Of a stretch of 64,000 nt of DNA, positions 1 to 23,027 are shown one piece after another. The DNA is taken from contig CM057135.1 of the NCBI GenBank assembly GCA_029964075.1, positions 2,155,001 through 2,219,000 of the forward strand. Reading direction: 5' to 3'. The stretch's first letter is position 1. Each line of letters starts with the position of its first letter. The translations under genes were made by a program, and so were the position numbers. The notes beneath the pieces were generated by a model. The model ran no database searches, was not told the DNA's origin, and worked only from the letters and a program-made list of their open reading frames with translations. This DNA comes from Patiria pectinifera. Its lineage: Eukaryota > Echinodermata > Asteroidea > Valvatida > Asterinidae.

Positions 1-1745
1 AGGTATTTCGTAAAAACGTGGTTGTTTTATTTTTCGATGTTTGCAAATGTTGTATATTTCCTTTAAAGGTGCCATCTAGTGTACTTTTGTAACACTTGAC
101 AAGCTCTTCGAGATCATGAGGAGTATCCATACACAGCTTGGAAGATTCGGCTTTCAAAGAATCAGCGTCAATAGATTGGACATCCCTATGAACAATCTTT
201 TTGACGGGGAAGGTGGTTTCTTTTGTTTCAAGTTAAAAAGAACTGATAAGTGATCAGAAAAAAGATGGTGTGCAGTCCGAGGACTGTCCAGAATTATCTG
301 AGCCCGAGCGGTCTTCCGAGCCCGGGAGGTCTCCAGCTGATAAAAATACCTGGACGGCTTCGCCCCTTCCTTGAGGTCACGAACCCGCGAACGGATCTGA
401 GCCCCCTCTGCTTCGAAGTCGTCCAGTTTAGCGAGCTCGTTCTTATTTTTTTTCGTGCCGGGCAAGAACCTCAGGGTTTCATTGCCCGGCATTAAGATCG
501 GAAACGACAGAGTGCAGGGCAGCCACAAGTGACTCCCTGCGCCGTCATCTATTTCTTGCGGACCGGCAAGAAACGAAAATAATAAATTGCTTAATGTGGG
601 ACTCCACGTCCTCCCACCAGAGGAGCACGTTACCGTACCCCTCCTTGAGAGTCCGCCAGCCCGCATAAGCCTTACTGACATCCGTTTGAAAGCCAGCGCC
701 AGGCCAGAACGAAAACATTACATTTCCAAAAAGCCCCAACCGCCGCCGGCAATCTCCGGGAAATTAAATTTCAAATCAAAACATTCATGGTCACTGAAAT
801 AGCATGGCGAATGCCCGCAAGACACAACACCCCCGAACTGGATGTATAAATACGGTCCAGTTGGCTAGTGATCGTATTTGCCGCATTTCGCCTTGTAAAG
901 GAATGCGTGGACGGGTAGAAAGACAGTGCTTGCTCCGCGGCACCGATCCCACAAGATGTTGAATCTCAACCACGGCGGTCAAGCTCTCAATTCGGGACAC
1001 AATTGAGGTCTCCTGCTAAAATAACAGGACGACTACCCGTCAAGAAAGAAGACAACTCTGTGAAGAAGAGACGGCGCGACCTGGGGTCAGTCGGGGCATA
1101 AACTGTGCACAATCGCACACCATTTCCTTTCCCAGGACCGCGCAAAATTCCAGAAACGATCCTTCCATCAGAATCGATGGAAAGATCAGAAAAATTCAAA
1201 AGGACTTTTGGCAGGCAGAAGGATGATGGTCCCACAGGAAGAAGATGTGCCAAAACTGGCAAAAATCTTCCCCCTCCACTCCGCCTGCCAAGAAACTAAA
1301 TCATCATTGCCGGAAATATGACACTCCTGAAGACAGGAAACATACTTCCGACAAAGACTAAAAACGCATCTCCTCTTCACAGGGTAAAGCATTCAATTGA
1401 CATTCAATGAAAGCAATCTGACCATGGTGTGTTGAAGTGAACATATTACTCTGGTGAATCACCTTCCGGATTACCACGAGAGTCAAGAGTGGCAGCGGGG
1501 AGAGAACGACTGTCCCCCATTTGCTTGTCTGTATCTGGGCCCTGGGGCTCGGACTGGCTAGTTTGTGCGTCCCCCAAAGATGTGCGGGAGACAGCACTAG
1601 TTTTAGATGCGCTTGCAGGCTCATTCACTTTCACCTCAGAGTCTGAGAGACACGGCTGTTTCGAGCGTTTAAAACAGCGCCCTCAGTTGTTCTTATTTGG
1701 CCAGGCGAAAACATGGCCGTTGCACGTCGCGACTGTTTGCTGCGT
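1..1745 (-). pseudogene. 5' part of a Tx1/L1-type LINE, cut by the window edge
   Basis: Read on the minus strand, about 1660-1745 gives a zinc-knuckle-like end (CNGHVFAWPN) and 1446-1634 a Ser/Pro-rich tail ending in a stop, as at the C-terminus of an L1/Tx1-type ORF1. From 1392 downwards an AP-endonuclease-like ORF2 starts: LQECHISGNDDLVSW, FGTSSSCGTIILLP, LCTVYAPTD and ILAGDLNCVPN (about 990-1262). It continues in broken frames to LRFLPGTKKNKNELAKL and GAKPSRYFYQLETSRARK at 250-500, the linker between endonuclease and reverse transcriptase. The RT itself lies beyond base 1. Several frame changes and stops show a dead copy. The L1/Tx1 assignment rests on the GxKPSRYF linker and the endonuclease style and is inferred. 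Confidence 0.7.
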
Positions 1746-3109
1746 CCCATGGTACAAGGCTTTATGGCAAGATGCAAATTTTGACCTTTTTCGGAATTGT
1801 GATTGGCTGACTGGTAATTTAAATATGCAAAGTATTTTAAATCCTTATTTGGTCAATATTGTATGATGTCATATCATTTGTGGGCTTATGATTGGCTGTT
1901 TTCCTGGATAAATTGAAAATGGGTCGATGGTACGTCACTCTTCGCGGTCGTGGAAAAAATCCAGAAACAACATTGCGGTGACGAAAAAACGTCTCCAGAA
2001 ACAACGGATGTTCCGACGGATTTTGACTTTTTGAAGGTCAAAACTACTGTTATATCGGTGAATCGAGATATTTATCACAGGATGTTATTGGTGTAAGGAG
2101 CGGGCAATGACAATTTAGAGAAATATCAGTTTTGATCGTAGCAAATTTGGCATGTCATACATGTTTGGCACGTGTATGCGTAAGCACAATTCAGTTTTTG
2201 CATGTTCATCACGTAGGTACGCTGTCTCCTTATCTGCGAATCACGCATGGAAAGAAATAAAATTAGTACCTGATGCCACTTTTTCTTCATGTATCATCTC
2301 AGTATATAGGGCAGTCATTGCAAAAATGAAAAGACGTGACTCCTTATTAATTGTTTAGTTTTAGAACCAAGTGGTGTCTGGATACTACTGACTACATTCT
2401 TTCCAAAGTGCCACAAGTGCCAGGATTAGAAGTAGGACATGTAGGACTTGTTGTAAATGAAACGACTGACCTGACCAGACTATGATGATTCCACGGGAAC
2501 AATAATGTATTTACACTTACTTCAATAATATAATAATTAAGTTACATACTTATCCAACATGTGGTTTAACATGTCCAATGTAGCCTACATATATATGTTG
2601 CAAACAATCAGTTAAATGATGTGCATGTGCGCGCTCTCGGTCGATGGCGATGCTATGGAGCGGATTCTTTAAATTCACGACTCTGGAGTATTTTTTTTAG
2701 AAAGTTAAGTAAAATCCAAGATATCCGTCATTATCAACCGATGTATGGTTATTTATGCATCATCAAGTTTTTGATTGTTTTAAGAGCTAAAAATGAAAAA
2801 CAAGTGTAAGGGGACATAATAATTTGCAAAGAATAGTACTGATATCTACAGACATAACAGTGACGTATAGGCTGGTCAGAAAAATTAAACAGTTGCAGAT
2901 GATCACTAGACAATTTCTTAATTTATTTTTTGGAATTTTTCCGTTTGTGTTAAAATTACTCTTTTATTTGTGAGGATGTATATGTGTACATTTTTATTCA
3001 CATGTTTTGCAGTTGCTTTTGCCGTTTTTGGGTTGAAGGGGTGTTGTGTCAACTAGGTCTATGTACACATGTATGATGTCACATTATGCACTATGTAATT
3101 AAGTTACAC
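1746..3109. other. AT-rich stretch with no supported feature
   Basis: No open frame here has recognisable domains, and the short frames at 2152-2358 and 2621-2809 look random. It could be 5' leader of the neighbouring LINE or unique intergenic DNA. Confidence 0.5.
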
Positions 3110-3330
3110 AAATGGGAGTATGGCCTATGTGGTTAGAATTCATGACTTATAATCAGAGAGTCAGGGGTTCCAATTCACTTCCAGCTGCTGGTTATATCAT
3201 ATGATGTGTCCTTGGGCAAGCCACTTAATCACCCTTTCCTCTCTCCACCCAGGAGTATAAGTGGGTACCGGCGTTAGCTTGGGAGTAACCTGCAATGGAC
3301 TAGCATCCCATCCAGGGGTGATAGAAATTA
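3110..3330 (+). repeat. tRNA-derived SINE
   Basis: An A-box-like stretch (TGGCCTATGTGGTTAGAATT) is followed about 35 bases later by a B-box-like stretch (CAGGGGTTCCAATTC, one step from the usual GGTTCGAATCC). The two are spaced as in an RNA polymerase III promoter of tRNA origin. The body then runs CTTGGGCAAGCCACTTAATC and CCACCCAGGAGTATAAGTGG, a module I know from many aquatic-animal SINEs, and ends near AGCATCCCATCCAGGGG. The B box carries a substitution, so this copy is probably inactive. The exact SINE family is not assigned. Confidence 0.72.
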
Positions 3331-3489
3331 TTTTCAGTTGTTTCATGCTACTGAAACCGAATATAAACACCTGATGAACAATATTGGCTTAAGACAGACT
3401 GTACTTGCATATTAATGTGCATTATCCTTCTATTGCAATCAGTTGTTACTACAATTTTGTACAATTATTCTTCCTTTTTTTCTGCACGA

Positions 3490-3773
3490 GGTTTGGATGC
3501 ATGCCCTCACTTCTGGGGTGGTTGTGGTGTGATGACGTCGCATGATGCTGAGCAACTTCTGAAGTGGATCTCACATTCCTTGAACAACTCGTTGAACCCG
3601 GTTGAACTCGGTATGCACAAGTTCCCCTCCCTGTTCGTTAAGAAGACCAAAGCCTACTTTGTACACAGCAAGCTGTTGTGTTGCATGGTCCGCCAGCAAA
3701 TGCATTTTTGGGCTGATGTTCAAACCTGGAAAGGAGGACCTGGAGCACCGCATAAATTCTTGAATGCTGACAT
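3490..3773 (-). CDS. Exon K: H-x4-H and final Glu block (RAG1-like C-terminus)
   Basis: A TTGCAG acceptor ends at 3774. The exon encodes SIQEFMRCSRSSFPGLNI, SPKMHLLADHATQQL, VGFGLLNEQGGELVHTEFNR, VQRVVQGM, a TGA, then DPLQKLLSIMRRHH. HLLADH matches the H-x4-H of RAG1 (HKTLAH, H937/H942), and the Glu of GGE lies 21 residues downstream against 20 for RAG1 E962 in SEGNES. That registry is the strongest single argument for a RAG1 relationship. The TGA after GM is a nonsense change. The natural end of the frame was not located with confidence. Confidence 0.55.
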
Positions 3774-4009
3774 CTGCAACAAAGTGCAAGGGAATTAAAA
3801 AAACTAAAATGGCTAAAAAAAGAAAAAGTCTACTTAATGCTCAATAGTCGGTACATGACAAGAAATTATTTTTTTCTTGACAGACTTGATTAGTAAGTAT
3901 CCAAATAATTAAGCCATATATTTAGTTCAAATGAGGTACAAATCCAAAAAATGAAAATAATTTTTAGTGTTTTTTTTTGTTTTCATTTATTTTAACAGGT
4001 GTGGTTCCC

Positions 4010-4180
4010 GATGTTTTGCTGAATACAGCTCTGACAAGCATGTAGCAGGTGAGGTCAACAGGCAGCAAGACGTACAGACCCAACTTATGAAGAAGAGAGG
4101 GCAGCTTCTTTATCAGCTGCAAGGTCACAGACCACGTGCAAACAAACTGCTACTAAAAGAATGCAAAAATGCAAAAAATA
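4010..4180 (+). repeat. Inverted partial copy of the coiled-coil exon
   Basis: The plus strand reads EVNRQQDVQTQLMKKRGQLL and QLQGHRPRANK, closely matching VNRQQDVQIQLETKREQL and QLQGYTPRANN of exon H on the opposite strand at 5000-5150. The fragment sits between exons J and K in reverse orientation, so it is a local inverted duplication and not part of the gene's reading order. Confidence 0.7.
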
Positions 4181-4185
4181 CGCAC

Positions 4186-4621
4186 CAATTTTCTGAATTT
4201 GAGTGGTTTATTCTATGATGAATATCAGGAAACTTGAGGAAAAATTTGTCACAGATATTATTGGCTGCTTCCCAGCAACCTTTTAAATGCAGCAATATGA
4301 ATGTCATTCGATTTTGTGCTGGCAACAACTTTCAAGGGCACAGATGTGAAATCTTTGATGACATGGACCTGAAAGCCAATAAAAAAAAAAAACACCAGAA
4401 GCCACAAATTCATTTTTTTGTACTGCCAAAGGTAGTTAATTATGCACTGTACTGACAAACACACTGAAGTAAGTGCTCACCCGACAACACTTATGAACGT
4501 GATTTCCCACAATGCCATGAAAGGCTTGTCGGCAAACGTTGTGTTTGACAAGAGCACTATCAAGGCTGCTGGCTATTGGTCCAATGCCGAAAGAGAGCTG
4601 CACATTTTGGGATTGTTGTTC
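4186..4621 (-). CDS. Exons I and J of the RAG1-like gene
   Basis: Exon I (4481-4621) lies between TTTACAG and G|GTGAGC and reads SFGIGPIASSLDSALVKHNV, CRQAFHGIVGNHVHKCC. Exon J (4186-4368) lies between GGCTTTCAG and G|GTGCG and reads VHVIKDFTSVPLKVVAS and DIHIAAFKRLLG, then after a frame change WEAANNICDKFFLKFP and RINHSN. I recall related VxRQAYHGxxFVGNHVHK segments in invertebrate RAG1-like or N-RAG proteins; that recollection needs a search. Both splice pairs are good, which argues for real exons and against chance frames. Confidence 0.5.
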
Positions 4622-4780
4622 CTGTAAAAAAAGAGAGATGAATTACATAAGACAACATGTGTTCAAAGTCTGCAGATAATGCAATTATGGACCTACATGT
4701 ACATATGTGAACACATTGCTTTTGCATACATGTGCATTCTTGAAAAACCAACATGCATGCGTATAACTACATGTGTAAAC

Positions 4781-4924
4781 GGATACACCTCTATGTTCCG
4801 ACACCCCTATGTTCCGTCTGCACATATTCCTATTCCTAACCCTAACCCTAACCCTAACCCTAACCGGGAGTAACACAATCTAAGTTGTCGGAACATAGGG
4901 GTGTCGGAACATAGAGCAGTCACC
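4781..4924. mobile_element. hAT-like MITE with telomere-like core, copy 1
   Basis: A 144-bp element has inverted ends built from CTCTATGTTCCGACACCCC, with a core of (CCTAAC)n telomere-like repeats. It is flanked by the 8-bp direct repeat GTGTAAAC (4773-4780 and 4925-4932). Eight-bp target duplications are typical of hAT transposons. A second copy is at 38445-38598. Confidence 0.75.
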
Positions 4925-4929
4925 GTGTA

Positions 4930-5379
4930 AACATTACACAAACCATATTTGGCGTATATCTCACCAAGTGATTAATCTCAGCTCGAAGTTGACCAGCTCT
5001 GCGGACCATCTCTCTGAATACATTGTTTGCACGTGGTGTATAACCTTGCAGCTGATGGAGAGAAAGGTTATCCTCTATCTGCTGAAGCTGCTCCCTCTTC
5101 GTCTCAAGTTGGATTTGAACATCTTGCTGTCTGTTGACCTTAGCTGTTAAAGTCTGGTCAAAATTGTACTCGTCATCATTGTCATCAGCACCCTCAACTC
5201 GCAGCTTGAACAACTTGGTGTCAAGGTTGTGGCATTCCAACTCGTACCGATCAAACAATTTCTTAAACACCCCGAGAGAGACGTGCAGGCTCGGCAAAAT
5301 AACCTGTTGTATATGTGACCTGGCACCACCAAATGGGTGGAAAGTAGCAAAATTAAAACAATTAGATAATGCCATCTCT
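4930..5379 (-). CDS. Exon H: LPSLHVSLG block and coiled coil
   Basis: After a TTTCCAG acceptor at about 5380 the exon encodes FATFHPFGGARSHI, QQVILPSLHVSLGVFKKLFD and RYELECHNLD. An acidic stretch (DDNDDEYNFD) and a long Gln/Glu/Lys coiled coil follow (RQQDVQIQLETKREQLQQI). RAG1 has a comparable H-x-x-[LI]-G segment (ALHCDIGNAAEFYKIF) between its zinc pair and its final catalytic block. The open frame runs on to 4920 only because it crosses the MITE inserted at 4924, so the last residues are not genuine. No stops inside. Confidence 0.55.
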
Positions 5380-5399
5380 GGAAAGAAGAAGTTCTAAAC

Positions 5400-6045
5400 T
5401 TTTAAATGATGTATTGTTTGTTCCTGTAGCTTATTCCTAGCTGCCGCTATGCCCTTTTGAAAATCCTAGAGTCATGCCCCCTTGTTTTGAGAAAACGGAG
5501 ATTAAAGTCAGTGAACCGTGCCAACCATAATCTCAGTGCATGTGACCCCATATCACCCCAACAACGGATATGTTTCCTTCTCTTGATTTCAAAGAAACTC
5601 GACACACACAATTAAACAACTACGAGTGACATGTGAATGTAATTTTGGTATTTTTATTTAAAATCTTGCATAGATAATGAGCTGTTAATGAGCATTAATA
5701 TTCATGAAAGTAATTAAAACAATGCTGTAGTTTGCGTTTCCCAAATCGGTTCCGGTTTTTGATTGTTATGCTGCTCCAAATTTATAAAAGTATTTTGTAA
5801 ACCCCGTTCCTTGAAGCCATTCCCCCAATAAAAGCATGTAATCCCTCCCCCGTTGAAAAAAATATCAGCAAAACATGAATATTTCGCAGGTTGTATGTCA
5901 ACCAGTTTTCCGGACCCCTACATCTTGAAATAATCATGCATTTCAATAAAACAAATTTACAACCCCAAAACAGATTACTCCTCTGATAAAGTATTAAGTA
6001 AATTTAACAAAGATGTTGCAAAACCGTTATGTACATTGCTCATTA
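5400..6045. other. Intronic or intergenic DNA, nothing recognised
   Basis: No coding frame or clear repeat is visible. It lies inside the long intron before exon H of the RAG1-like gene. Confidence 0.45.
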
Positions 6046-6425
6046 GGCCAAAAAAAAAAAGTCTCCGGTTTCTGGTATGGAGCTTGCCCCAAAAGTGGTG
6101 CGGCGACGCGGCTTTTTTTTTTTTTTTACCTGTTTTTTTTTTTTGGGGGGCTTCAAATGTCGGCTGATGACTGCAAATGGTGCCTGACTAAACTTAGTGC
6201 AAATATATGGGAGTCCAGAGAGGCCACATAAATCTTATTCTCGATCATAACCCCATCTAAAAACACGTTAAAATTGTGCAGCAGCAGAATTCCAGTCAAA
6301 CCAGTGAGTTTGGCGGTTTTGAAACATCATCTTGTATTGAAAAAAAAACTTTTTCATTTTGCCGACGCGCATGGCTACGGCGACGCGCGCGCATACCAGA
6401 AACCGGAGACTTTTTTTTTTTGGCC
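6046..6425. mobile_element. PIF/Harbinger-like MITE, copy 1
   Basis: A 380-bp element has terminal inverted repeats of about 33 bp: GGCC, an A-run, then GTCTCCGGTTTCTGGTATG. It is flanked by TTA on both sides (6043-6045 and 6426-6428). TTA target duplications and GG-starting ends fit PIF/Harbinger. The interior has no transposase; the small frames in it are chance. Nearly identical to the copy at 16513-16888. Confidence 0.82.
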
Positions 6426-7272
6426 TTATGATCCTTACCAAGTTTTAAAAACAAGAATTGACGGATTTAAACCCCCCCCCCCCCCCCCCCAATGAGTGGG
6501 ATTCTTCAAATGCTAAATTCACCAAAATGCTATAGGTGGCTGGCAATTAAACATAAACCAATAATATGCGAAGTCAGAATATCAATCAAGTGCAAATTAA
6601 AAGAAATATCTGCAAGTATTTACTAAACAGTCTACCTATAGCACTCTGCAATGAATTTGCATACTTTTGCGAAGAAAAGCAGAAAAAATAGCTGATTTAT
6701 GTAAGTATTACAAAACATGTATTCTGATTTCTAAGGCCAACAAGAATTTGAGCTTTGACCTTCTTTGAGCAAATGTTCCACTTATAACTCCATGAAATAA
6801 TTAAAATTTTGCAACAATGAGCTTTTTTTTTAATCCGAGTACCTAAGGTATTAACTGTTCAAAGTTGGTTGATAAAGGGATTTAACTTTGGCAATTAACC
6901 AAAGTAATCTCTAATCTACTTTCCTGCGAGTCAGTGCTTGTCAGTTTTTCGCTGTTTTCTCCGAACTGGTCGCACAACGTCATCATCATCAGAGGATTCC
7001 TCCACATCACTCGAGTCTGGATCGGAAGACGATCCACCACCGACGCTGTCACTTGCAGAGGATGGATCATGGTCATCGCATACGGCATTCTCAGCATGTG
7101 ACATCCTGCTTGTCTGAAGCACAAAAGGGGCGAATCTTTTGGAAGAGCTACTCCTGACGCTTGTGCGACAAACCTGGAGCCGGGATGGGTTGTGGTAGGT
7201 GATCGGGAGAGGAGGGAAAGCACCTTTGGATTTCGCAGAAGCTGTGCCTTCTTCTCTGGAGATTCTGCATAC
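6426..7272 (-). other. Spacer with an unassigned acidic reading frame
   Basis: 6429-6880 shows only a poly-C run and AT-rich DNA. From 7272 to 6900 the minus strand reads LLRNPKVLSLLSRSP and, in a second frame, a Ser/Asp-rich segment (SDSVGGGSSSDPDSSD, VEESSDDDDVVRPVRRKQRK). Acidic-then-basic tails of this kind occur in nuclear proteins and at the ends of some Gypsy polyproteins, but no domain supports either view. It abuts the truncated LTR at 7273. Confidence 0.3.
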
Positions 7273-7331
7273 TGTAACGTGCGTCGCCTAGTCGGTCCCT
7301 TGCCTCTCTGGCCCAGTCCCGATGGAGTTGA
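7273..7331 (-). repeat. Truncated 3' LTR of Gypsy 1
   Basis: About 58 bases match the end of the 5' LTR (TGTAACGTGCGTCGCCTAGT and onward on the plus strand) and are joined directly to RNase H codons. The join lies within a short shared AACTCC-like stretch. Confidence 0.8.
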
Positions 7332-8832
7332 GCAACCATCTCAAGGCTCCATGATCGGTTCTGATTACAAAGTGTCAACCATACAGGTAATGCCGGATGT
7401 GCTTGACAAATGTCACAACGGCCAGGCGTTCTCGCCTCGTGACGCAGTAATTCCTTTCTGGCTTCGACATCGTGCGGCTGAGATATGCAACGACTTTCTC
7501 CACACCATCGTGTTTTTGGGATAGCACAGCTCCCAGGCCTGTGCTACTGGCATCCGTGTCTTGTACAAACTCTCCTACTTCTTCGGGGTAGACTAGTATG
7601 GGTGCTGATGTCAACTGTGTCTTCAGAGTGCGGAAAGCAACCTCGCAGTCCTCTGTCCACAGGAACATCCGATTCTTTTCCATAAGTCGGTGCAATGGTT
7701 GGGCAATCTTGGCAAACCCTTGAATGAAACGTCGGTAGTAAGAAGCCTATCCAATGAAACTCCTTACATCTTTGGTGGACCGAGGTGTTGGCTATTCCTC
7801 CACAATTCTCACTTTCTCGGTGTCGTGTCTACGCCCTCACTAGATATCACGTCCCAGATAGGCTACCGATTGTTTGAAGAGGCTACATTTCTTCGGCTTT
7901 AGTTTGAGGTTGGCCTGTCTCAGCCTCCGGAAGACTTCCCCAAGTCTCTCTATCTCCTCATCCACCGTCTTAGCAAAGACCACGATGTCATCTAGGTACA
8001 GTAGTAGTGTTTCCCACTGAAGCCCAGGGAGAATCCTTTCCATCAGCCTCTCAAATGTAGCCGGGGCGTGACAGAGGCCAAAAGGCATGACCTTCCACTG
8101 GTACAGTCCTCCTCTGGTAACGAAAGCTGATTTGTCCTAGGCATCCTCATTTAGTTCCACTTGCCAGTATCCACTGGCCAGATCTAGGGTACAAAACCAC
8201 TGTGCCCCTGCTAGCGAATCTAAGCTGTCGTCCACCCTGGGTATCGGGTATGCATCTTTCAGTGTGTGTTCGTTGAGAAACCGGTAGTCCACGCAGAACC
8301 GGGTGGATCCATCTTTCTTCTTCACTAAGACGTTGGAGACGCCCATGGGCTATTTGATGGCACGATTATCCCCTTCTGTAGCATGTCTTGTACCTGCTCG
8401 TCTGCCTCGGCCCGTTGCCAGGTAGGGAGACGTCTGGGACGTTGGCGTTGGGGGCCGTATCATCTGTCCTGATCTCGTGACGCACCAGGTCCGTTTTCCC
8501 CAGGTCTCCCGTTGAGAAAACGTCTTGATACTCGATGAGTAGCTTCTACACCTTGTCTCTATCTGGACTCTCCAGTAAGTTCTCAACACTCTGTTGGTAC
8601 AGATCGGTGAGATGTTCTGGGAGCTCTTGACCAGCTTTATTCTCTGCTGTTTCTCCCCCTCTTTCCATCATCCTAATCGTAGCGCGATCATCTTTCTGGA
8701 TGTCCTTATCAGCCGTGGATGTGATGGTCCCCAAGACACTACCTCCACTTATCATCACAATTGTAGTACCTGGGTTGAACACTCGGACCGGGTATTTATC
8801 TGCAGTGGCATCCACAAGTACCCTCGCTACCA
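7332..8832 (-). pseudogene. pol: Reverse transcriptase and partial RNase H of Gypsy 1
   Basis: RT blocks are [20 protein letters not shown] and [14 protein letters not shown] (8137-8346), then MPFGLCHAPATFERLM and LLLYLDDIVVFAKT (7840-8088), with the YLDD catalytic box intact. RNase H follows at 7375-7695 (FVQDTDASSTGLGAVLSQ, VVAYLSRTMSKPERNY, RRERLAVV), then RTDHGALRWLLN, where it breaks into LTR sequence. Frame breaks separate the blocks. The enzyme would copy element RNA into DNA; this copy cannot. Confidence 0.85.
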
Positions 8833-9312
8833 TCAGACCTCGTTTTGCCACCTTACTCCTGTCAGTTGGCTCGATGATCCCCCATCCATGGAGGTCTTTC
8901 TTCTCGTCCAGGACACCTGTGAGGATTGCTTCATGCCCGGGTGGTATCCTTGTAGTCCTGTCTGCTCGCACTCGGCAGCTGAAAATGCTCGATGATCTTT
9001 TCCTTGTAAATGAATTACATGCTCCCCAATCTCCAATTGCTGATACCTCAAGTCCAGTACACTGCCAGTGGTCAGAAGGTAATTCATGCCGAGTATTCCT
9101 TGGTTTCCAATTCCAATTCGTATCTCCATCTGGGCACTTCCTTTTACTGGGAGTGGTTTCCCATCGGCTTGGCGGATAACTTCATCGACCGGTGTCAGTA
9201 TTGGTCTGGTTTCTTGATCCATCAAGTTGTACTCTTTTGTGTCTATCAATGTCTCTGACGACCCAGTGTCTATTAGGAATGGCAGTGGATGTGTCCCAAT
9301 TTCACCCGGCAC
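8833..9312 (-). pseudogene. Aspartic protease of Gypsy 1
   Basis: LPFLIDTGSSETLIDTKEYN carries the DTG active-site triad of retroviral-type proteases. It is followed by VKGSAQMEIRIGIGNQGILG and NYLLTTGSVLDL, where a flap and second hydrophobic strand are expected. It lies between the zinc knuckle and the RT, the usual Gypsy order. The frame then changes into the connecting region at 8546-8971. Confidence 0.8.
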
Positions 9313-9389
9313 GAATACCCCATATAAAGCAACATCACTTGGTAGTGGTACTGGGTGGAGCTGCTTCCTTGAAAGTTCTCCAACATCCT

Positions 9390-11024
9390 TTACTTTTTCT
9401 GGATCTGTATCACAGGTTTGGGGGCTTGTGTTGCCGACCTTCCCACGACCCCCTGGGTTGGTCCGGAGTCGTTTCCCGACGGTGCGCTGTTCTTCAGTTC
9501 AGGGCAGTTTCTCTTAAAGTGCCCCGTGTTTCCACAGTGGTAGCAGGCTGGTTTTTGACGCTTCTGTTCGAAGTCGGCTTGTTCAGGGCGCCGTGTGTCA
9601 TTCTGCATTGCTTGAGTTAGCCCGGCCAACATCTGATGCACTTGCCTCAGTTGCTCCGACATTGCCCGTGTTTGCCTTTCGAACTCATCCCTTGAGACAA
9701 TCTCCACCTGTCTTGTGACTCGATTGTTTCTGTCTGGCCGACCACCCTGGTTTCGCTGCCGTTGTCTCTCCGCTTTCAGAAAATACTCGGTCTCCAGCGC
9801 AGCTCTGATGCGCTCTGAAGATTCCCGCTCTAATGTCTGCATCGGGTATGGCATCCACCAGATACTCTCGTGCCAGACGCTCTCTGCTATCTCGGGGCAG
9901 CTCAGGATACGCCAGCTCCGTGAGTCGACGTATTCCCTGCCCCAGCGCTTGCAAACTTTCGTTTTCTGTCCTTGTTCTGCTCCTAAGCTCGGCTAGGTAC
10001 GTCTCGGCTCGCTCACCAGGCCCATAACGTCTTTCTAGTCTTGCTGTGAGCTCTGCATAGGTCAGCACTTCTCCTGTAGCCCTGTCTCCCAGCACTTGCT
10101 GTGCTTGACTCTTGAGGCTCGCTGCCAGGAAGTAAGCTTTGTCCTCTGCCGTCCAGCTATTAATAACTGCACATGACTCAAAATGAGATTGATAGTCTCT
10201 CCATGGCACCACCCCGGCGAATCGATCCGGCACGATATTTGGCTTCCGATGAACTCTGCTGGTTTTTTCTGCCCCTGCAATTGTTGCTCTCTTGGGTGGA
10301 TCCTGCCCGAGTGGTTCAGGCAGAGTTTTCTTTTCTACTGATTCTTTCTCTCCCAGATCCACTGGTTTCCTCAGGTGCTGCCCTGTGCTCCCGACTTCTT
10401 CCACCACCCACCGTGGTACTGTGCACGTCTGATGTCCAGGCGCCTCTCCCAACCGCTGCTGCAGATTACAACTCGCATCATACGCCGACTGTGGGGTGTT
10501 TATGCTACCTGGCATTTCCCCGGGAGCCTGCATTCTTAGCCGGGCCGAAGGCCATCCAGACTCCACCAGAACATCGCTCGTTCCAGTAGGTCTCTGCCGT
10601 CGAACCTCTGCTGGTTTTACTCCGCCCCAATCAGTCAAACTCCGATAGACGGGCTGCTCTACCACCCCGGTCCCCATGTCACTGGTGTTGACATGAATCT
10701 TGCCTGAGGAGAGGACTCCGCTGTGCCGACCGTAGGTGTCATCACTTCCCCAACTCTTCCGGTCTGTTGGAAGAGCTTTTGTGCCGTCACTGGCTCCGGC
10801 GCCCTGATGCCAACACCTGGCATCCTCTGGGCGGCTCTTGCCGGTGTCAATACAGGAGGCGATGGTGTTACCGCAGGGTGAAGCCTAATGCTTGCTTTAC
10901 TGGTCAGCCTGTCCGGTGTTGCCTCAAAGTATCCAACACTTTCTTCCAACATCCCGTCTCTGCTGTCCATTGTTGCTGTGACTAGTGGTTCTCCACGTCC
11001 ACATCTGAATTCCGTTATCCTCAA
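9390..11024 (-). pseudogene. gag: gag of Gypsy 1
   Basis: The frame begins near MDSRDGMLEESVGYF (about 10972). After a shift near 10660 it continues into the capsid region (VPDRFAGVVPWRDYQSHF, LAASLKSQAQQVLGD, LTARLERRYGPGERAETY, ELAYPELPRDSRERLA). A further shift near 9690-9850 leads to an Arg/Gln-rich segment and one CCHC zinc knuckle, CYHCGNTGHFKRNC, intact. Gag packages element RNA into virus-like particles. Two or more frameshifts make this copy non-coding. Confidence 0.82.
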
Positions 11025-11122
11025 ATCACTGCTTCTGGTAGATCGATCCTGACCCCTCTCACCCTGTGGTTTCTTTGGCTAGCTGTCCCGTCACTCTCAG
11101 TGGATCCCACCGCTGCCACCAA

Positions 11123-11662
11123 TGTAACGTGCGTCGCCTAGTCGGTCCCTTGCCTCTCTGGCCCAGTCCCGATGGAGTTCAAGCACCTGCGGTTGGAGGC
11201 CACAGCACCAAGTGACGAACAGCACTCCCAAATCTGCTCCACCAGGGGAAAGCGCTAACTCAATGTGTGTTTGGGATTTAGGGGATTGGGTGGATTAACC
11301 TGTGGTTTTGGGTGGATTAGCCACTGGTTGGGGTGGTTGACCGGTGGCTCTGGGTGGCTGACCGGTGGTTCAGGGTGGCTGACCAGTGGCTTAAGTGGCT
11401 CAAGTGGCTCAAGTGGGGGAGACTTACACCCTAATTATTGACAATTAGACAATAAAACTGAGACAGGAGACTTCTTTGACTTCTTTGGTCCCACCAGGCG
11501 AAGAAGTGAGATTTATTCTCTCGAACTGTGCCTTTTATAGGCCAACATGGTCATATACATTCACATACAATAAATGTCCCTCATTACTAAAGTACACAGG
11601 GTGTCTCAACCAATGAAAATGCAGTATTGCTCAGTAGATGACTTAAGCCACGCCCCCTAACA
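11123..11662 (-). repeat. 5' LTR of Gypsy 1
   Basis: The LTR runs (minus strand) from TGTTAGGGGGCGTGGC to GACGCACGTTACA, 540 bp, with the TG...CA ends typical of LTRs. The minus-strand sequence TATAAAAGGC at about 11533-11542 could be the TATA box. Immediately downstream on the minus strand, TTGGTGGCAGCGGTGG is in the position of a tRNA primer-binding site; the tRNA is not assigned. The 59 bases at the 7273-11123-type end recur at 7273-7331. Confidence 0.78.
11262..11435. repeat. Degenerate minisatellite inside the LTR
   Basis: Repeated units of roughly 22-28 bp built on GGGTGGCTGACCGGTGG and GGGTGGATTAGCC, ending in GTGGCTCAA steps. It lies wholly within the 5' LTR of Gypsy 1. Confidence 0.6.
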
Positions 11663-12325
11663 GCGCTGGCCAATTAAATGCTGATGTTCTAGTATGAGTG
11701 ACTGGGCACTAAAGAAAAGTCACTATACAGTTCATGTTAATGTTTAAAATTTATAGTTGATGATTCATCACTTTACTCTTTGTAGAAAATGCAGCCTGGA
11801 TGTTCTGAGCTGAATCTGCGCAATGCAAAAAACAAACAAACAAACACATTTTTACTTCAAATTGAATTTTATTTAAGGTTGCCGTTAAGCGCACTCTTTA
11901 CTCTTGCGCAAACTTAATGTACTCCCTCCTGAGTTGATTATCTTATGAATGAATTTCATTCGAAGGCAAATCAACTCATGATGGAGTACAATAAGCTTGC
12001 GCAAGAGTCAAGATGGCGCTTGACACTGCCAAAGGCCCTTGCATGCTATCAATTTCATCAAATGACAAAATTATGCTGCTAACAATGTTAATAAAGAATG
12101 TGCTCTAATTATAATTGCTTCAATGTTTTCAAAAGTTTGTATGACAGTTTATTGGTGAAAAAGATCACAAAAGATGATGGCGAGAATTGAAAAATTGCAG
12201 TGTACTCATTTCATGTAAAGTACATGTACTTGTACAACCTGGCCATAACTTTAAATACTCGTATGTGGTTGATGGACTTCACCCCTGCGAGCGGCTTGAA
12301 GTAGGTCATAAAAAATGCCTGCCAA
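11663..12325. other. Intronic DNA, one short inverted pair
   Basis: No coding frame seen. Around 11898-12017 the plus strand reads CTCTTGCGCAAACTTAATGT and, inverted, ACAATAAGCTTGCGCAAGAG, with GAGTTGATT/AATCAACTC between. This suggests a small foldback or MITE of about 120 bp. Confidence 0.45.
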
Positions 12326-13186
12326 TTAGGTAGGCACATTGACCTCCCCTTCTTCGTTGCCTACAATACATGGGACGTTCACACCAGCAACCGAACTCTC
12401 CTTGCAGAGTTGCTCGATGTCACCGAGGCAGGACACTTGTCGAATTCTGTATGCCTTTTTCAGCAATCCAAAACACCAGTCTGGCGCGAACTTGGTGTGG
12501 CCGACAACTAGGAAATGAAGGTGAATGTTAGTGTGTAGACTATGGATAGTCCGCCACAGCAGGTACCACATGGTGTATCTGTTTTTATTCTGCCCACTGC
12601 AGTTGTCGCAATTTAAGTGCACAGTTTCTTCTCCAAATCGATAGTGTTCAAAAAAATAGTGAAAATAACTCAATACAGAGTTTGACCCTTTGCTGATGGC
12701 CATACCCTCGTCAATGAAGAAATTTACTTGTTGTGGCAGTGCCTCGCAACATACTCCAAGTATGCCACACTTCCGAGGGCACAAGAAGTAGATTGGACCG
12801 GGCTGTTGCGGATCTGATGGAAAGTGAACCTGCTGGGCATAGTCGAAACTGTAATGCATTATTATCTTTTGTGAGTTGGCAGGATGTGGGCCCAGTTTCC
12901 GCTGCGGTAGTCGCATCTCCTTTGATTCCTCAACAAGCTGCTTATACAGCGCCCTCTCTGTGTTCACGTGGTGAAGATGGACCTGCTGAGCAGCCAGTCA
13001 GTGCTGCTTCTCTTCGTCCTGCAGGTTAGCGCTGCGGTACACGGAGCTGTTATTCTGGTGGCAGACCCAGCACAGATCCGTCATTGGTCTTGTTGTTAGG
13101 ATGAAAGGGCAGAACTGGCGCCAAATCTTAGCAAACGTTGTACATTTTGCTACTCGAAGCAATGTCAGTCCTGTTAACACACACAC
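12326..13186 (-). pseudogene. C-terminal part of a transposase-like gene (family A, copy 1)
   Basis: The frame reads FAKIWRQFCPFILTTRPMTD, LCWVCHQNNSSVYRS, an in-frame TGA at 12998, then HHVNTERALYKQLVEESKEM, HYSFDYAQQVHFPSDPQQ, GPIYFLCPRKCGILGV, HLNCDNCSGQNKNRYTMWYL and GHTKFAPDWCFGLLKKAYR. The D-N-C-x-G-Q-N-K-N block and the later GHTKF-P-D block look like the Asp-bearing strands of an RNase-H-fold transposase. I recall this domain as DUF7869, widespread in invertebrate genomes, but have not checked. Homologous exons occur on the other strand at 56709-59335. The single TGA breaks an otherwise clean 280-codon frame. It lies in the long intron of the RAG1-like gene. Confidence 0.6.
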
Positions 13187-13236
13187 AATAAAACAAATAA
13201 ATAAATAAATGCTTACCTACCCAACACAAACAATTA

Positions 13237-13399
13237 CAGTCGAACGTCAATAGTAAGAGCACTGTTAATACAACATTCTGCTTACAACAAGGACAAATTT
13301 AGGTCCCAATTGCTTTTTTTTTTCATTGTTTTCATTCCTGATAATACAAGGTTCCTGTTGTAACAAGGTAATCTGCAAAGTCCAGAGGACGTTCGACTG
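13237..13399. mobile_element. pogo/Tigger-like MITE
   Basis: A 163-bp element begins CAGTCGAACGTC and ends with the inverse (GACGTTCGACTG). It is flanked by TA on both sides (13235-13236, 13400-13401). TA duplication and CAGT ends fit the Tc1/mariner-pogo group. No coding capacity. Confidence 0.78.
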
Positions 13400-13429
13400 T
13401 ATGCCCCATTATCATCCAACTTAAAAATC

Positions 13430-13789
13430 ACTTATTCTAAGGGCCAACAAATCCTTGGTTCTGGTTCTTCTACAGCCATCTTCTAAAAAAGACTGTAGTT
13501 GTGGCATATGGACTGAAGTGTCCTCATGGTTGATGAAACCCTGTCATCAATGGGCTTCTGCATAGCTTCCTTGCTGGCCAAGCAGTATAGGCAACACTGC
13601 CGAGCTTTGAACAAAAAAAAGTTCATATTTTGAAAAGAGCTGATACTTAAAAAAAAAACAAAGAACATTCTTTGCAAATGAAATTCATGTACAATGTACA
13701 CATTCATGCATTACCATTTGCTCCATAGATGCCATACAGCTTTGTTAAGAGCTCATAGTCACCGAAGCAGAACAGACGGATGGTGTGCC
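13430..13789 (-). CDS. Exons F and G: second Asp block and zinc Cys pair
   Basis: Exon F (13715-13789) has a clean TTTTTTCATAG acceptor and a G|GTAATG donor. It encodes HTIRLFCFGDYELLTKLYG followed by IYGANG. Exon G starts at 13596 after CGGCAG and encodes CCLYCLASKEAMQKPIDDR and STMRTLQSICHNY, then shifts frame at a T-run into FLEDGCRRTRTK. In RAG1, D708 (in RGTGYDEKL) is followed about 20 residues later by the CTLC zinc pair; here GDYE is followed by CLYC at a similar distance. This is the best-preserved part of the gene. Confidence 0.6.
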
Positions 13790-13965
13790 CTATGAAAAAA
13801 AATAATGGAAAGCGAAAAATGAATTTTGCATGATGCCATATTCATAATGTCTGATACAATCAATTAGAATTTACATCAACAATACATACAACACCACAAA
13901 ATCCACCAGCCAAGCTTATAAAAAGAAATCAGAACAAGTCATTAAGTGAAGAAATTTGAACTTAC

Positions 13966-14201
13966 TTCCATTGTTGTTCAGTCAGTTTGTTGATCTGGCT
14001 GGCGATTCTTGGTAGTGTTCTTTTGAAATTCTGGGTGGAGTCATTTCCCTCATATCATGCAAACACTACCGTATTTTGAAGGCTGTTTGGATTTTGTTCA
14101 TTGACTATTTGATATTCCATCTTGAAAGACGAACCCCCTTTATCGCCCCCTATATTTCACTAGCAGTAATCACACCGTTGTGCCAGGTCAGGGAGCCACA
14201 C
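13966..14201 (-). CDS. Exon E: first catalytic-Asp block of the RAG1-like core
   Basis: Acceptor TTTAACAG ends at 14202 and donor GTAAGT starts at 13965. The exon reads SLTWHNGVITASEI, then in another frame GGDKGGSSFKMEYQIVNEQN, PNSLQNTVVFA, a TGA, and YEGNDSTQN. The Asp of GGDKGG is in the place of RAG1 D600, where a D in a Gly-rich loop precedes a run of strand residues. A few codons seem to be missing between ASEI and GGDKGG. Together with the TGA this shows decay, although the Asp itself is preserved. Equating this Asp with D600 is inference. Confidence 0.55.
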
Positions 14202-14330
14202 CTGTTAAAGTATATTAAACAAGGTGATATCCATCAGTGTTCATACATGTACTTATATAAGTTGTACCTTATTTGTACTCCGATAGATGTACATGTACAT
14301 ATACATGTATTTTTTATTTTATTTGGATAC

Positions 14331-15618
14331 TCCCTCTATCAGTCTGTCAAGATAATCAAACACCATCTTGCCAAGATCATTAATGCTGGCGTAGGGTACA
14401 ATCCGCATTTCAAAGCCCCGAGTCGCATCAGCTTTAGTACCGGGGAACATCAACTCCACCACCTCAGCCTCTAGGTAGTTTTTCTAGCAGCTCCTTCTGC
14501 TGAATTATCATTGATCTTTCCTATGGTAAAGTCGATCCAACATACCTGTCACAGAAAAAAAAAATTAAGGAAAAGGATAAATTTACAAATGTACAATATA
14601 CATGTAGTTGTATTGCCCCAAAAAATATGGATGTTCATGTACATGTCACCTTTTAGAATTAAAAACTTAATACATAAAATGTCTTATGTACCGTCACTTA
14701 AACCAACACTTGGATCAGTTACCGTATACATTTTATTTGTTCTGAAACATGTAAGTACATGTGTAATGTGTTGTGTACATAACTAATTGTGTGAAATGTA
14801 CTTTCTATATTACAGATGGGTGAAACAAATAACAATACCTACCTTAAAATTTTCCTGACCTGGTCCTATGCGAGGTGGCAGTCCCTCATCATAGCCAGGG
14901 CTCTGTTTGCTTGCTGTTTCTTGGGGGTGGGAGTTGAGGTCTTTTGGCTTTCTTGGGGTCACTTGTTTTCAGTATCTTTTCGTTAGGACACGGTGCATCA
15001 TATTCTTGTTCTCGTTTACTTTTAGACACCTGTTGAATATGTGCAGGCTGATGGAGAAAAGCAAAAGTACTGACTATTGTTATGTACAATTATATTTATT
15101 TCATTCATTTAACTTGCAATTTCTATTTTGTTTAGACAATTAACATTTATTGAAAAACTTCATAGAAATATTTATTAAATAATTGATCGTTTAAGTTATT
15201 CTCTAGTCAATCTTTTAATTAACATGCATGTTAACTAATTAACATACTACCTAATGTATTTGTAGTTACTGAAATTGTGACGATTTTTAAGTATGTAAAT
15301 ATCAACCACATTCTGGTTTCATTTAAACGTACCCGTCCTCCTGTGTTCAATGTTGCTTCTTTGATGAGCTGTTGTAGCTTTAGCCACGTCCATCTATCAG
15401 TTGCACGTTCTATTTCGTAGGGTATCGGTTGACCTCTTTGGTGTGTAAGGACCTCCTCTCTCAAGATTTTGGCTGCGTTTGCCACTGATAATGACTCTGA
15501 TAACGACTCTTGGCCATCTACAAAATTATTCGACTTGACAATTGTCACCTTTGGTAGAGGAGTTGCAGGATTTTCACACGTATGGTGAAATATTTTTTGC
15601 AGACTTTCCTATTGTACC
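14331..15618 (-). CDS. Exons of the linker between RING and catalytic core
   Basis: Three blocks are visible. 15333-15618 gives IFHHTCENPATPLPKV and NAAKILREEVLTHQRGQPIP, ending GGR before a GTACG donor. 14843-15047, behind a CAG acceptor, gives HIQQVSKSKREQEYD, a Lys/Pro-rich stretch and (in another frame) RALAMMRDCHLA, ending AAG|GTAGGT. 14331-14545, behind ACAG, gives IIQQKELLEKLP, then VELMFPGTKAD and GKMVFDYLDRLIEG before a GTATCC donor. In families with this architecture such segments join the zinc N-terminus to the DDE core. Frame changes inside the second and third blocks argue against a working product. Exon limits are read by eye. Confidence 0.45.
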
Positions 15619-16074
15619 CTACTGGGTACAAACTAAATGTAAGTTGTTTAGCTGTACATTTAGGATTCTAGAACTGCGGTCTACTTGGTGGAAATTAATC
15701 TGTTTCCCGCATACAGGACATGGTACATCTGACTGTTTGAGAAACTGAAAGTACTTGGTGAGGCACTGTACACAAAAATTGTGTTCACAAGAAGACTGTA
15801 GGCATGGGGATGGCAATAAACAAAGGTAAATGGGGCACGTAAAAAGGGAATGTTCCTCATGTCTGCCAAGTATCTCGATGTATGGTTCAGTCTCTGTGAC
15901 ACTGTCAATAATGCCAGAGAAAATGATGATTGATACGGCAGAGAATGGTAGATTACCGAGTAGGGATGATGATTGTTTTTCAACAACTCGTTTAGATTTT
16001 TGGGGTCCTCCTCCTTGGAGTGATTGTTCAAATCGTTCACATACAGCACAACTGCCAAGTCTAGGATGTTTTGC
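15619..16074 (-). CDS. Exon B: Cys pair plus RING finger, RAG1 style
   Basis: The block continues the same frame: KHPRLGSCAVCERFEQSLQG, then about 60 residues, then a RING finger (FTCPIYLC, CEHNFCVQCL, DVPCPVCGKQI), followed by RSSRILNVQLNNLHLVC. The spacing matches RAG1's RING and the leucine-rich segment ending in Cys behind it. The second zinc Cys of the RING reads Tyr (CPIY instead of CPIC), so one metal site is probably lost. The block ends at TAG 15619, after which the expected HHTCENP continuation is in another frame. RAG1's RING is a ubiquitin ligase; no such activity is claimed here. Confidence 0.62.
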   Translation of the reverse strand, partial: AKHPRLGSCAVCERFEQSLQGGGPQKSKRVVEKQSSSLLGNLPFSAVSIIIFSGIIDSVTETEPYIEILGRHEEHSLFTCPIYLCLLPSPCLQSSCEHNFCVQCLTKYFQFLKQSDVPCPVCGKQINFHQVDRSSRILNVQLNNLHLVCTQ

Positions 16075-16323
16075 TTAAACTATTTCAGCTGCTCTGCTAA
16101 CATTATTGTATTTCTGAGTTTGTGCCTGGTAGTGCCTTACTTTCCTGGAACAGTTTTCACAGAGAGAATTTGGGTGTTGATCTGGTACATCAGTCCATGT
16201 GCTTATCTGAAAGACGGCAAATATCTCCTTCCTGTTGCCATGGCACAAAGTGGGTCCTCGTTTTGTAATTGTCAGTTGCCTGGCTGACGCAGTTCTACCT
16301 CCACATACTCTACACACAAACAC
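16075..16323 (-). CDS. Exon A: N-terminal zinc domain of the RAG1-like gene
   Basis: The frame opens at ATG 16323 and has C-x2-C at once (CRVCGG), then KEIFAVFQI, then DVPDQHPNSLCENC with a second C-x2-C. RAG1 N-termini have the same layout: Cys pair, a short hydrophobic stretch, then HP-x3-C-x2-C. The frame meets TAA at 16075 but continues in the same register into the next block, so the stop looks like a point nonsense change and not a true end. Its role in RAG1 relatives is zinc-dependent folding and protein contact; in this copy it is probably not expressed. Confidence 0.6.
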   Translation of the reverse strand: MFVCRVCGGRTASARQLTITKRGPTLCHGNRKEIFAVFQISTWTDVPDQHPNSLCENCSRKVRHYQAQTQKYNNVSRAAEIV

Positions 16324-16324
16324 A

Positions 16325-16512
16325 TTGCTGTGTCACTTGACTCACTTTTGGACGATTTTAGTGAGTCATAGTAAATTTGACTCGTATTTAACACCATATG
16401 CATCGCATCAGACTCACTGAAATTTACGTAGCGAGTCAAAAGGGCATTGACTCACTTAGAATGTTTATTGTTGACTCACCTGTCCCTTGAAAATGAGTCT
16501 GGTTTGACATTA
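16325..16512. repeat. GACTCA/TGAGTC-rich repeat, left part
   Basis: At least six GACTCA or TGAGTC hexamers lie in about 190 bases, many followed by an A- or C-rich step (TTGACTCACTTTTGG, ATTGACTCACTTAG). The same motif density resumes at 21590-21835, beyond the inserted MITE and TIR element, so both parts may be one interrupted repeat. Confidence 0.55.
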
Positions 16513-16888
16513 GGCCAAAAAAAAAAGTCTCCGGTTTCTGGTATGGAGCTTGTTCCAAAAGTGGTGCGGCGACGCGGCTTTTTTTGTTTTGTTACCTGGT
16601 TTTTTTTTTTTTGGCTTCAAATGTCGGCTGATGACCGCAAATGGTGCCCGACTAAACTTAGTGCAAATATATGGGAGTCCAGAGAGGCCACATAAATCTT
16701 ATTCTCGATCATAACCCCATCTAAAAACACGTTAAAATTGTTCAGCAGCAGAATTCCAGTCAAACCAGTGAGTTTGGCGGTTTTGAAACATCATCTTGTA
16801 TTGAAAAAAAAAACTTTTTCATTTTGCCGACGCGCATGGCTACGGCGACGCGCGCGCATACCAGAAACCGGAGACTTTTTTTTTGGCC
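16513..16888. mobile_element. PIF/Harbinger-like MITE, copy 2
   Basis: A 376-bp near-identical relative of the element at 6046-6425, with the same GGCC...GTCTCCGGTTTCTGGTATG ends and flanking TTA duplications (16510-16512 and 16889-16891). High identity between the copies suggests recent mobility. Confidence 0.85.
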
Positions 16889-18189
16889 TTATTAGTCCGT
16901 GGGACGAGAGCCCGAAAACGCTTTAGTTTTCGAGATAGGCGATCTGGTTCACCGAATTTTATAAAACTTGCCAGATATGTAGATTATGGTGTACCATATC
17001 AGAAAAACGTTGTTCCCCGGTCCAAGAATTGTTTGAGAATGAGAAATTCTACGACAAAAACACGCACGAATTGTGCATGAGAAAAAAGAAAGAAATAGCG
17101 CCCTCTTTTGACACAGCAAATATACATGTTACACGCCATGCATGCGCGGGCGAGGCGGGTTCGCCCGTCTTGCTGAACATTTGTTTAATGTTAGTTTCTA
17201 GCCTTTTTATTTGTAATTATTTCTAAAGCAAGATGCTTATTACAGTTAAATTAAATTTGAAATAACCAGGCAGTTCCTTATATTATAAAATATCTTGTAA
17301 ATGACAAGCCTTTATGAAAGAATAATGTGTAAAACCCATGAGCCCCAGAACTTGCAAGTTGCTTCGTTATGATATCCCACAAAACTGTAAATCAGTCAAT
17401 CTTCTCTAAATGGCTGCTAGTTAGCTGAAACGCATGATCATCATTAAAATGGGGCAGGTGTCATACTTAAATTGATTTAAATTTAGATTAAATTTGATAA
17501 GAACGATTTGAAACAATAAATAACAAATACGATCCAAATACTGTTTCTATAATTTTTTTATTCCAACTTGGATGTGCTGTACATGACATACTGCATTCAG
17601 CCAAAAGAAATACACAGATGGAAAAATCTTAATCAGTTAGTGTTGTTTTCTTGAATGAACAATTTGAGTAAAGACGGCAGGTACCTCAAACAGGATGAGT
17701 TCATGTATTCCAAATTAAATGACAAAGATCCTCCCCAGAAGAAAGAGCCCCAAAAGAACAGCTTCCAGTAGCAGATAACTTTACAAAAGTTGTTTAAGGT
17801 GTGCAGGCATTCCACTTTAAGTAAAAACTTAGATTCAAAACCATCTAGTATACATTTGTTTCTTGAACTTCTGTTTTAAATGACGATACAATTAATTATT
17901 TCCTTTTTGGCCCTATCCATTCCCCAAATCCCAATATACACCACATCAAACATTCATAAGGGTTTAATACAACTTCAAACACACCTTATGCAGTGTTACA
18001 TGTATCTTTTTGCCAATTTGGTTAACAGCCTTCATGAAAAAGAAATTAAAACAAAAATAAGTTTTCTAAATGCCAGTTTGTAAACAAACACAAATGTGTT
18101 TTCACAGATATCAATTATTCTGACCACACCAATGCAATGGCACTTCCTCAGTTGAATTTCTGCAATTACAGTACATGTATAAGTGTCAA

Positions 18190-20807: not shown

Positions 20808-21060
20808 AAACCTTGCACGTTATTGGTTGATTTTTATCCTCTCTCTGGCGTTATATTTGTCTAACGATATTTTGGCTGGCTGTAACCTCGAATTTGATGT
20901 TAATTAAAATTCATTTGTGAAGTCCCAAACCACCCACGAATGCGGGAACATGGTTTGTTAGCGCTTTCTATTTTTGATAAATAGAATGAGAAATATTAGA
21001 AAAAAATCGGAAAACCAGATCGCGTAACGAGCGAAAAAAAGGCCTCGTCCCACGGACTAT

Positions 21061-21840
21061 ATGACTTAGTACCAAGCTGGCACCGAGTCATCCCCGAACC
21101 CGTGCGGGCAAGCACAGGAAACCCGCTGTTTGCATCAATCCGCCATTGTTTTTGTCGCGTAGTAGTGGGAGCCAGAGCTCTTTCTTTTTCTTTCTGTTTT
21201 ACGGTATTTTCATGTTCAATGCTGCTATGCTGTTACTTGGGCAAACATATTTTCATGTTCACGCTGCTATCGTGTTGTTAATAACTTTTAATTCCTTGTT
21301 ATCAAGCACTGTTTGCTATGTGTAGCCAAGCCTAAATTACGAAAGTGGCTTTGCCGTCGTACGCCTAGGTTTAACGTTAGTACTAGGCCTACATTGTGTG
21401 AGGCCTAGTGTTAGGCGCAGTGAGCAAAAGCATTTTGTGATCAACAAGGTATATATGCCCTCTAAATCTTTTTTTACTTGTTTTACTGATGCTCTTGTGC
21501 GTAAACTGTCTTCGAATTTGATGGTTTATGCACATCGCAGTGTTTCAGCACAGGACTTAGCTAAACCAAACCATTCAAGTCACATGGCTCGCATGTATCC
21601 CATTCTGAGTAATTGGACTCGTTTATCACATGGCAGTGTGTCACTACATGGACAAAATGGTGACTCATTTAAATGCCACAAAATGAGTCAAAAGACCCAA
21701 ATATTATTCCAGCCCGAGTAACTTGACTCATTTCATGTGAGTCAAATGACTCACTTAAGTCCAAAAGTGTCTCACTACACGGACAAAATCATGACTCACC
21801 TAAATGAGTCTTGTGACTCAGCATTTATTTTCTGTGTACA
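21061..21840. repeat. GACTCA/TGAGTC-rich repeat, right part
   Basis: The DNA before 21590 is unremarkable. From there to 21830 at least eight GACTCA or TGAGTC words occur, including TTGACTCATTTCATGTGAGT. The phrase TGTGTCACTACATGGACAAA recurs as TGTCTCACTACACGGACAAA about 120 bases later, an internal duplication. Confidence 0.5.
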
Positions 21841-22054
21841 CAGTTTAGAAATAACCTCTCTGTGGTGACCGAAACTCCAAACTCTGTACATATTTAGCCT
21901 TCCACACAGTACATATTGTGAACAGTAATTTATGATAACACAATAATTAAAAGCTGAACTTTACAAAGAAAATATTGCCATGATATCCATCCTGTTTTGT
22001 GTTGACCCCGTATTCATGCGTGTGAGCATAGAGCAAGCAACGCGTACTAACTGT

Positions 22055-23023: not shown

Positions 23024-23027
23024 GTAT

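Follow-up and report, generated by a model that had tools for sequence, protein, structure and literature searches.

A decayed sea-star gene with the domain order of RAG1 is very probably a dead Chapaev-superfamily transposon

We analysed a 64-kb stretch of DNA (the window; C7:2155001-2219000) within a sea-star genome of 613.5 Mb and 1,020 contigs. Eight segments of a Patiria miniata protein (P0039) align with this genome at C20:32.70-32.71 Mb, at 85-99% identity, so that the host is likely to be Patiria or a near relative. Its minus strand carries a decayed gene in which an N-terminal zinc region and a RING finger precede transposase core motifs in the order known from RAG1. The original prediction, made from the sequence of the window, took this gene for a RAG1-like or N-RAG transposase. 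Comparison with related copies in the same genome leads us to a different assignment: the locus is very probably a dead copy of a DNA transposon of the Chapaev superfamily, and its likeness to RAG1 is, as far as sequence comparison goes, real.

A nine-exon gene and its relatives in the genome

Every motif named in the original prediction is present on the minus strand in the same order (Table 1), and the Glu expected 21 residues past the second His of HLLADH was confirmed by counting on the printed open reading frame (ORF). The N-terminal zinc region follows the pattern CxxC/HPx3CxxC and is succeeded by the RING. By analogy with RAG1 D600 and D708, we take the Asp of GGDKGG and the Asp of FGDYELL to be the first and the second catalytic Asp, respectively. 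The exons were placed by tblastn using the exons of a related copy, A1, as queries. All nine were detected in the window, with exon 8 weak when the exons of another copy, F, served as queries and clear with those of copy A. The predicted extent, 3490..16323, contains most of the gene; the element itself is longer, and the start of exon 1 lies outside that extent. The gene had also been called decayed, which is borne out by insertions, by the loss of the left end of the element and by stops or frame changes in exons 1, 2, 3, 5, 8 and 9. The gap between exons 5 and 6 measures about 8.1 kb, whereas copies A and B have 0.13 kb there. The copy in the window is dead.

Table 1. Features of the element in the window (positions in the window)
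Feature	Position	Strand	Basis or remark
Whole Chapaev element with nested insertions	1651..23445 (left limit approximate)	minus	DNA alignment to copies A and B; inverted-repeat scan
Element ends	1651 (right); near 23445 (left)		right end is a CAC inverted repeat; left end lost
Exon 1, first piece	21838..21873	minus	12 residues, cut off by insertion; tblastn, copy A1 exons
5.5-kb insertion in exon 1	16315..21836		CAC ends, apparent 4-bp TGTA duplication; junctions judged by eye
Exon 1, rest	15333..16317	minus	zinc (Chapa), RING, post-RING cysteines; in-frame stops, frame change
HPNSLCENC zinc motif	16176	minus
RING	within 15622-16074	minus
Exon 2	14343..14532	minus	stop and frame change
Exon 3	14010..14191	minus	frame change and stop; DUF1280 match
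GGDKGG	14150	minus	in exon 3
Exon 4	13713..13787	minus	tblastn and profile alignment
FGDYELL	13766	minus	in exon 4
Exon 5	13448..13605	minus	truncated by large insertion; frame change
CLYC zinc motif	13593	minus	in exon 5
8.1-kb insertion(s) between exons 5 and 6	5314..13447		DUF7869 ORF and retroelement (reverse transcriptase, RNase H)
Exon 6	4965..5303	minus
LPSLHVSLG	5297	minus	in exon 6
Exon 7	4481..4621	minus	GNHV region
Exon 8	4197..4368	minus	frame change
Exon 9	3475..3774	minus	HxxxxH and catalytic Glu (NEQGGE); one stop near end
HLLADH and Glu	ORF 3574-3840	minus

N-terminal matches were found at 63 separate (merged) loci across the genome; this count and the genome-wide counts for exon 6, DUF7869, reverse transcriptases, hAT and protein kinases given below are lower bounds. 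With the window blocks as queries, their order was kept, as far as they matched, in all eight other regions (8/8). One of these, region A, contains two copies, and regions D and E gave no match to the last two blocks. As relatives elsewhere in the genome have these blocks in the same order, the arrangement is not a product of chance. A survey with the exons of copy F as queries counted 13 copies besides that of the window, F among them, and left out two short pieces, L006 and L008, the latter on the other strand. All nine exons were colinear in 11 of the 13, including copy F as the source of the queries, and copies D and E showed exons 1-5 only within the DNA covered. Thus, the two halves of the gene are not separate elements, and the claim of one locus with both an N-terminal zinc region and a core is upheld. 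The suggested search for intact copies yielded a candidate: copy F has nine open exons, 0 stops and 915 residues. In another species, Asterias amurensis, two annotated proteins listed only as 'uncharacterized protein' (P0001 and P0002) each span both halves and have the same architecture over their whole length, and P0002 aligns with the entire query (100%) at 41% identity.

Ends, target-site duplications and superfamily

The inverted-repeat ends were located by copy-to-copy comparison; a scan of a single region (L009) had not revealed them. Alignments of copies E, F and G, which share 98.5-99% identity, start at most 2 bases from a CAC inverted repeat. Copies A and B share 97.1% identity over 7,575 alignment columns. 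The ends of the family read CACGGCYGTTTC with a few changes, and the right end of the window copy reads CACGGCTGTTTC. CAC is found at both ends of copies A2, F, H and I, and copy B has CAC on the left and CTC on the right. We scanned the ends of 14 copies for target-site duplications of 3, 4 and 5 bp. Matching flanks were detected in 5/14 copies, all of exactly 4 bp (A2 ACCC, B AGGC, F GCAA, H TCCT, I TCGG), and no match of 3 bp or of 5 bp, the length found in RAG1, RAGL and Transib, was seen in the 14 copies. The original prediction had proposed a search for terminal inverted repeats; those found have CAC ends of the Chapaev type, and the duplications measure 4 bp.

The core was compared with curated models. 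DUF1280 (PF06918) matches window exon 3 above the cut-off (E 2.6e-11); in the whole genome it has 78 matches, window exon 3 included, and it matches the relative P0002 with an E of 5.2e-19. The RAG1 recombinase model, PF12940, gave 7 matches at E <=0.1 in the whole genome and none in the window, and no match to the relatives P0001, P0002 and P0006. Passages of one study equate DUF1280 with Chapaev transposases (PMC3985635), and passages of another give as Chapaev hallmarks CAC/GTG ends, 3-4 bp duplications and the motifs C(2)C, LH and H(4)H (PMC4079192). In the window these motifs are CLYC, SLH and HLLADH. The Chapa + RING arrangement is supported by aligned cysteines and histidines; RING models match the window exon weakly (best E 0.0012, below the cut-off), and the relative P0001 lies above the cut-offs of zf-C3HC4 and zf-RING_UBOX. 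The 3-bp TWA duplication, the hallmark of Chapaev3, was not found, the duplications being 4 bp long and of other sequences. As to a RAG2-like kelch partner gene, which accompanies RAGL, no ORF of more than 118 residues was seen at either end of copy B or in the 3′ portion of copy F; no search with a kelch model was made there.

The CAC ends, the 4-bp duplications, the DUF1280 match and the lack of a PF12940 match indicate Chapaev and not RAG or Transib, whose duplications are given as 5 bp in part of PMC8355894. They contradict the membership among RAG1-like transposases that had been claimed for the locus. Several points weigh against the Chapaev assignment. In 9/14 copies no matching pair of ends was found, an end being lost or outside the DNA covered in some of them, and copies C, D, E and J offer only poor right-end candidates with mismatched flanks. 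The alignment of copies A and B ends 44-95 bases before the right ends, and copy A is without a left end. The duplication of the window copy itself is unreadable because its left end is lost. Lastly, the exon boundaries were set by homology and GT/AG, not by transcripts, and the phase of the junction between exons 1 and 2 is not fixed thereby.

Known Chapaev elements of the Chapa + RING subgroups (from Repbase, according to passages of PMC4411706) share with the sea-star family the CAC ends, the 4-bp duplication, the DUF1280 core, the C(2)C, LH and H(4)H motifs and the Chapa + RING N-terminus. The sea-star family is distinguished by its nine exons and by inverted repeats like CACGGCYGTTTC, and it may already stand in Repbase. 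The repeated copies, with their inverted-repeat ends and duplications of constant length, bear signs that the family was once mobile, and the motifs of the DDE-type core are conserved. By analogy with the superfamily, the transposase would bind the CAC inverted-repeat ends, would cut by means of an Asp-Asp-Glu triad and would join the ends at sites 4 bp apart, i.e. with a 4-bp stagger. The RING may serve dimerisation or ubiquitin transfer, as in RAG1, for which ubiquitin-ligase activity is reported in a section of PMC4411706.

Likeness to RAG1 and alternative readings

A profile built from eight exon-1 sequences was searched against the PDB and had RAG1 as its top match with an E of 4.8e-12. 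Profile positions 4-275 were aligned to RAG1 102-390, that is, to the zinc region and the RING together, and other RING proteins ranked after RAG1, from E 1.1e-8. For profile-profile comparisons we used 18 supplied RAG1-like proteins, dropping rows with little sequence in the compared stretch, and column shuffles (200 per test) served as controls. The N-terminal profile scored 111.6, compared with 15.7 +/- 3.0 for the shuffles, of which 0/200 were as high; with more sequences the score was 122.3, and 0/197 valid shuffles were as high. This alignment covers the zinc region only, about 100 columns, because many of these proteins lack the RING. A tree of 20 N-termini placed 7 RAG1-like sequences in one group apart from 13 Chapaev sequences with a support of 0.945; it is unrooted and based on 112 columns, 10 of the 13 Chapaev sequences come from the same genome, and sequences without the full zinc pattern were dropped.

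The core profile matches 45 proteins. Judged by species name, the named relatives presumably belong to sea stars, sea urchins, a sea cucumber, a crinoid, hemichordates, Hydra, a coral and a sponge. Among 14 long core relatives scanned, DUF1280 was detected in 13 and the RAG1 importin-binding model in 2; precomputed labels assign the latter model to P0045 (crinoid) and P0054. A HMMER search of the PDB with the core profile returned no RAG1, only coiled-coil matches (E 0.9-3.4), and an hhalign comparison of an 11-sequence core with one RAG1-like sequence was weak (probability 12%). A 17-row core aligned with the 18 RAG1-like proteins scored 34.5, compared with 18.8 +/- 3.0 for the shuffles (maximum 29.1, 0/200 as high), at a probability of only 14% (14-18% across comparisons of this core), and placed the FGD Asp on the Asp of the RAG1-like MID and CxxC on CxxC. 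With 51 rows the score was 48.9 (shuffles 18.1 +/- 3.1, maximum 29.4, 0/200) and the probability 75%. The latter alignment spans 154 columns at the C-terminal end and brings the two His of HxxxxH, as well as the final Glu of GEQGxE, into register with their RAG1-like counterparts. A full-length comparison reached a probability of 98.9%, mostly from the N-terminus, and set the GGDKGG Asp on the Asp of GADGMG. As all controls were column shuffles, the core result indicates a likeness beyond composition and does not prove that RAG1 is the nearest family. The profile search proposed in the original prediction thus finds RAG1 with the N-terminus; the core is linked to RAG1-like proteins by profile-profile comparison but not to RAG1 by plain HMMER. 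That prediction had named a core from another superfamily, with only the N-terminus resembling RAG1, as evidence that would speak against it; curated models do place the core in another superfamily, but the profile-profile comparison extends the resemblance to the core.

A true member of the RAG1-like transposase genes (RAGL/ProtoRAG/TransibSU), and thus a sister of vertebrate RAG1, would be in keeping with the shared order of the zinc, RING and core motifs and with RAG1 as the top PDB match of the N-terminal profile. RAG1, RAGL, TransibSU and ProtoRAG indeed share with the element the zinc region, the RING (in RAG1) and the core motif order, with HxxxxH and Glu in register. However, they have a Pfam core family of their own, 5-bp duplications (PMC8355894, in the part cited above) and a RAG2 partner gene. 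Together with the absent PF12940 match in the window and in P0001, P0002 and P0006, the DUF1280 membership and the HMMER core search without RAG1, this makes such a gene very improbable. The N-RAG alternative of the original prediction is contradicted as well. N-RAG-TP of Aplysia is likewise a mobile element with a RAG1-like N-terminus, but it comprises N-terminal-like sequence only, according to a passage of PMC8355894, and does not fit an element whose exons 3-9 encode a core.

The exons of the window copy are closer to those of copy A (93.2% identity, 2,368/2,542 positions) than are five non-coding stretches (89.3%, 1,957/2,192; local alignments in both cases), which fits protein-level selection before decay. 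Such conservation would also be expected of a Chapaev-derived host gene that decayed later. A transposase should leave the same signal, though, and 63 separate N-terminal matches, together with the inverted repeats and duplications that bound several copies, render a host gene highly unlikely. As a Chapaev transposon, the window copy probably stems from a lineage whose enzyme worked; insertions and point changes would later have ended the function of this copy. That a RING gene and an unrelated transposase adjoin by chance, as the large insertions parting the blocks in the window might suggest, is hardly credible with nine exons colinear in 11/13 other copies and with single A. amurensis proteins covering both halves.

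Chapaev elements with Chapa + RING ahead of the core have already been described (passages of PMC4411706; Kapitonov and Koonin 2015), and part of PMC3985635 independently places RAG1 and DUF1280 in one clade. Our find is at most a new example of this known kind and not a new link. Of the link between RAG transposons and RAG1 that had been claimed for the locus, the shared domain order in both halves stands, but the kinship of Chapaev was already published. Because the tree of the N-termini (0.945) and the in-register core alignment agree, we lean towards the view that a single ancestral transposase, with the zinc/RING region and the core already in place, gave rise to both Chapaev and RAG1, an idea that is Kapitonov and Koonin's own. 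With such an ancestor, the ubiquitin-ligase end of RAG1 would not be a late fusion. Our additions to this idea are profile comparisons of the two halves, controlled by shuffles, and core relatives in a crinoid, a hemichordate, a cnidarian and a sponge. The genome offers dozens of related copies of a transposase with the full RAG1 domain order, and in one of them all nine exons are open. It also carries RAG1-like and RAG2-like genes side by side. A common origin of Chapaev and RAG1 thereby becomes easier to test by structure and biochemistry, though this alone does not alter the accepted picture.

Nested insertions, genomic distribution and RAG relatives

The insertion in exon 1 may be another element of Chapaev/CACTA type, since it is bounded by CAC and by what appears to be a 4-bp TGTA duplication. 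The DUF7869 ORF of the other large insertion lies at 12329-12997 (E 4.1e-12). Each of the large insertions contains one of two similar repeat segments (5998-6495 and 16432-16926; by eye, from ORF translations). In the intron after exon 8 there is a partial antisense copy of exon 6 (4021-4145, corresponding to 5023-5171), which the window copy shares with copies A and B and which is absent from 3 other copies compared. A transcript containing it could form a long hairpin.

The contig that holds the window, C7, makes up 7.3% of the genome. It carries 44/63 of the merged Chapaev N-terminal matches, all 44 in its first half (0-22.4 Mb), and 37/52 of the matches to a Chapaev exon-6 query, 35 of these in the first half. 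Also on C7 are 33/62 of the DUF7869 matches, 33/150 of the scored reverse transcriptases and, by hand count, 31/94 of the hAT matches; a wider DUF1280 search gave 8 matches in the second half (hand count). Protein kinases are represented by 7/133 matches, with 0 in the first half (hand count). From the high transposon and low kinase counts, C7 looks transposon-rich and its first half gene-poor.

A RAG-like gene pair was also found on C7 at 13.016-13.020 Mb (L034:1316-5083), with RAG1 core ORFs on the minus strand and an ORF with kelch and PHD on the plus strand, converging. Its RAG1 core ORFs match PF12940 with E 2.7e-46 and 3.8e-21, with one stop between them, and share 76-77% identity with RAG1-like proteins from Asterias and Acanthaster. 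A divergent relative of RAG1 lies on C21 (L035:1026-3553) and has long open frames with 421 residues and a PF12940 match of E 2.9e-14; it is possibly a host gene or a member of another Transib-like family.

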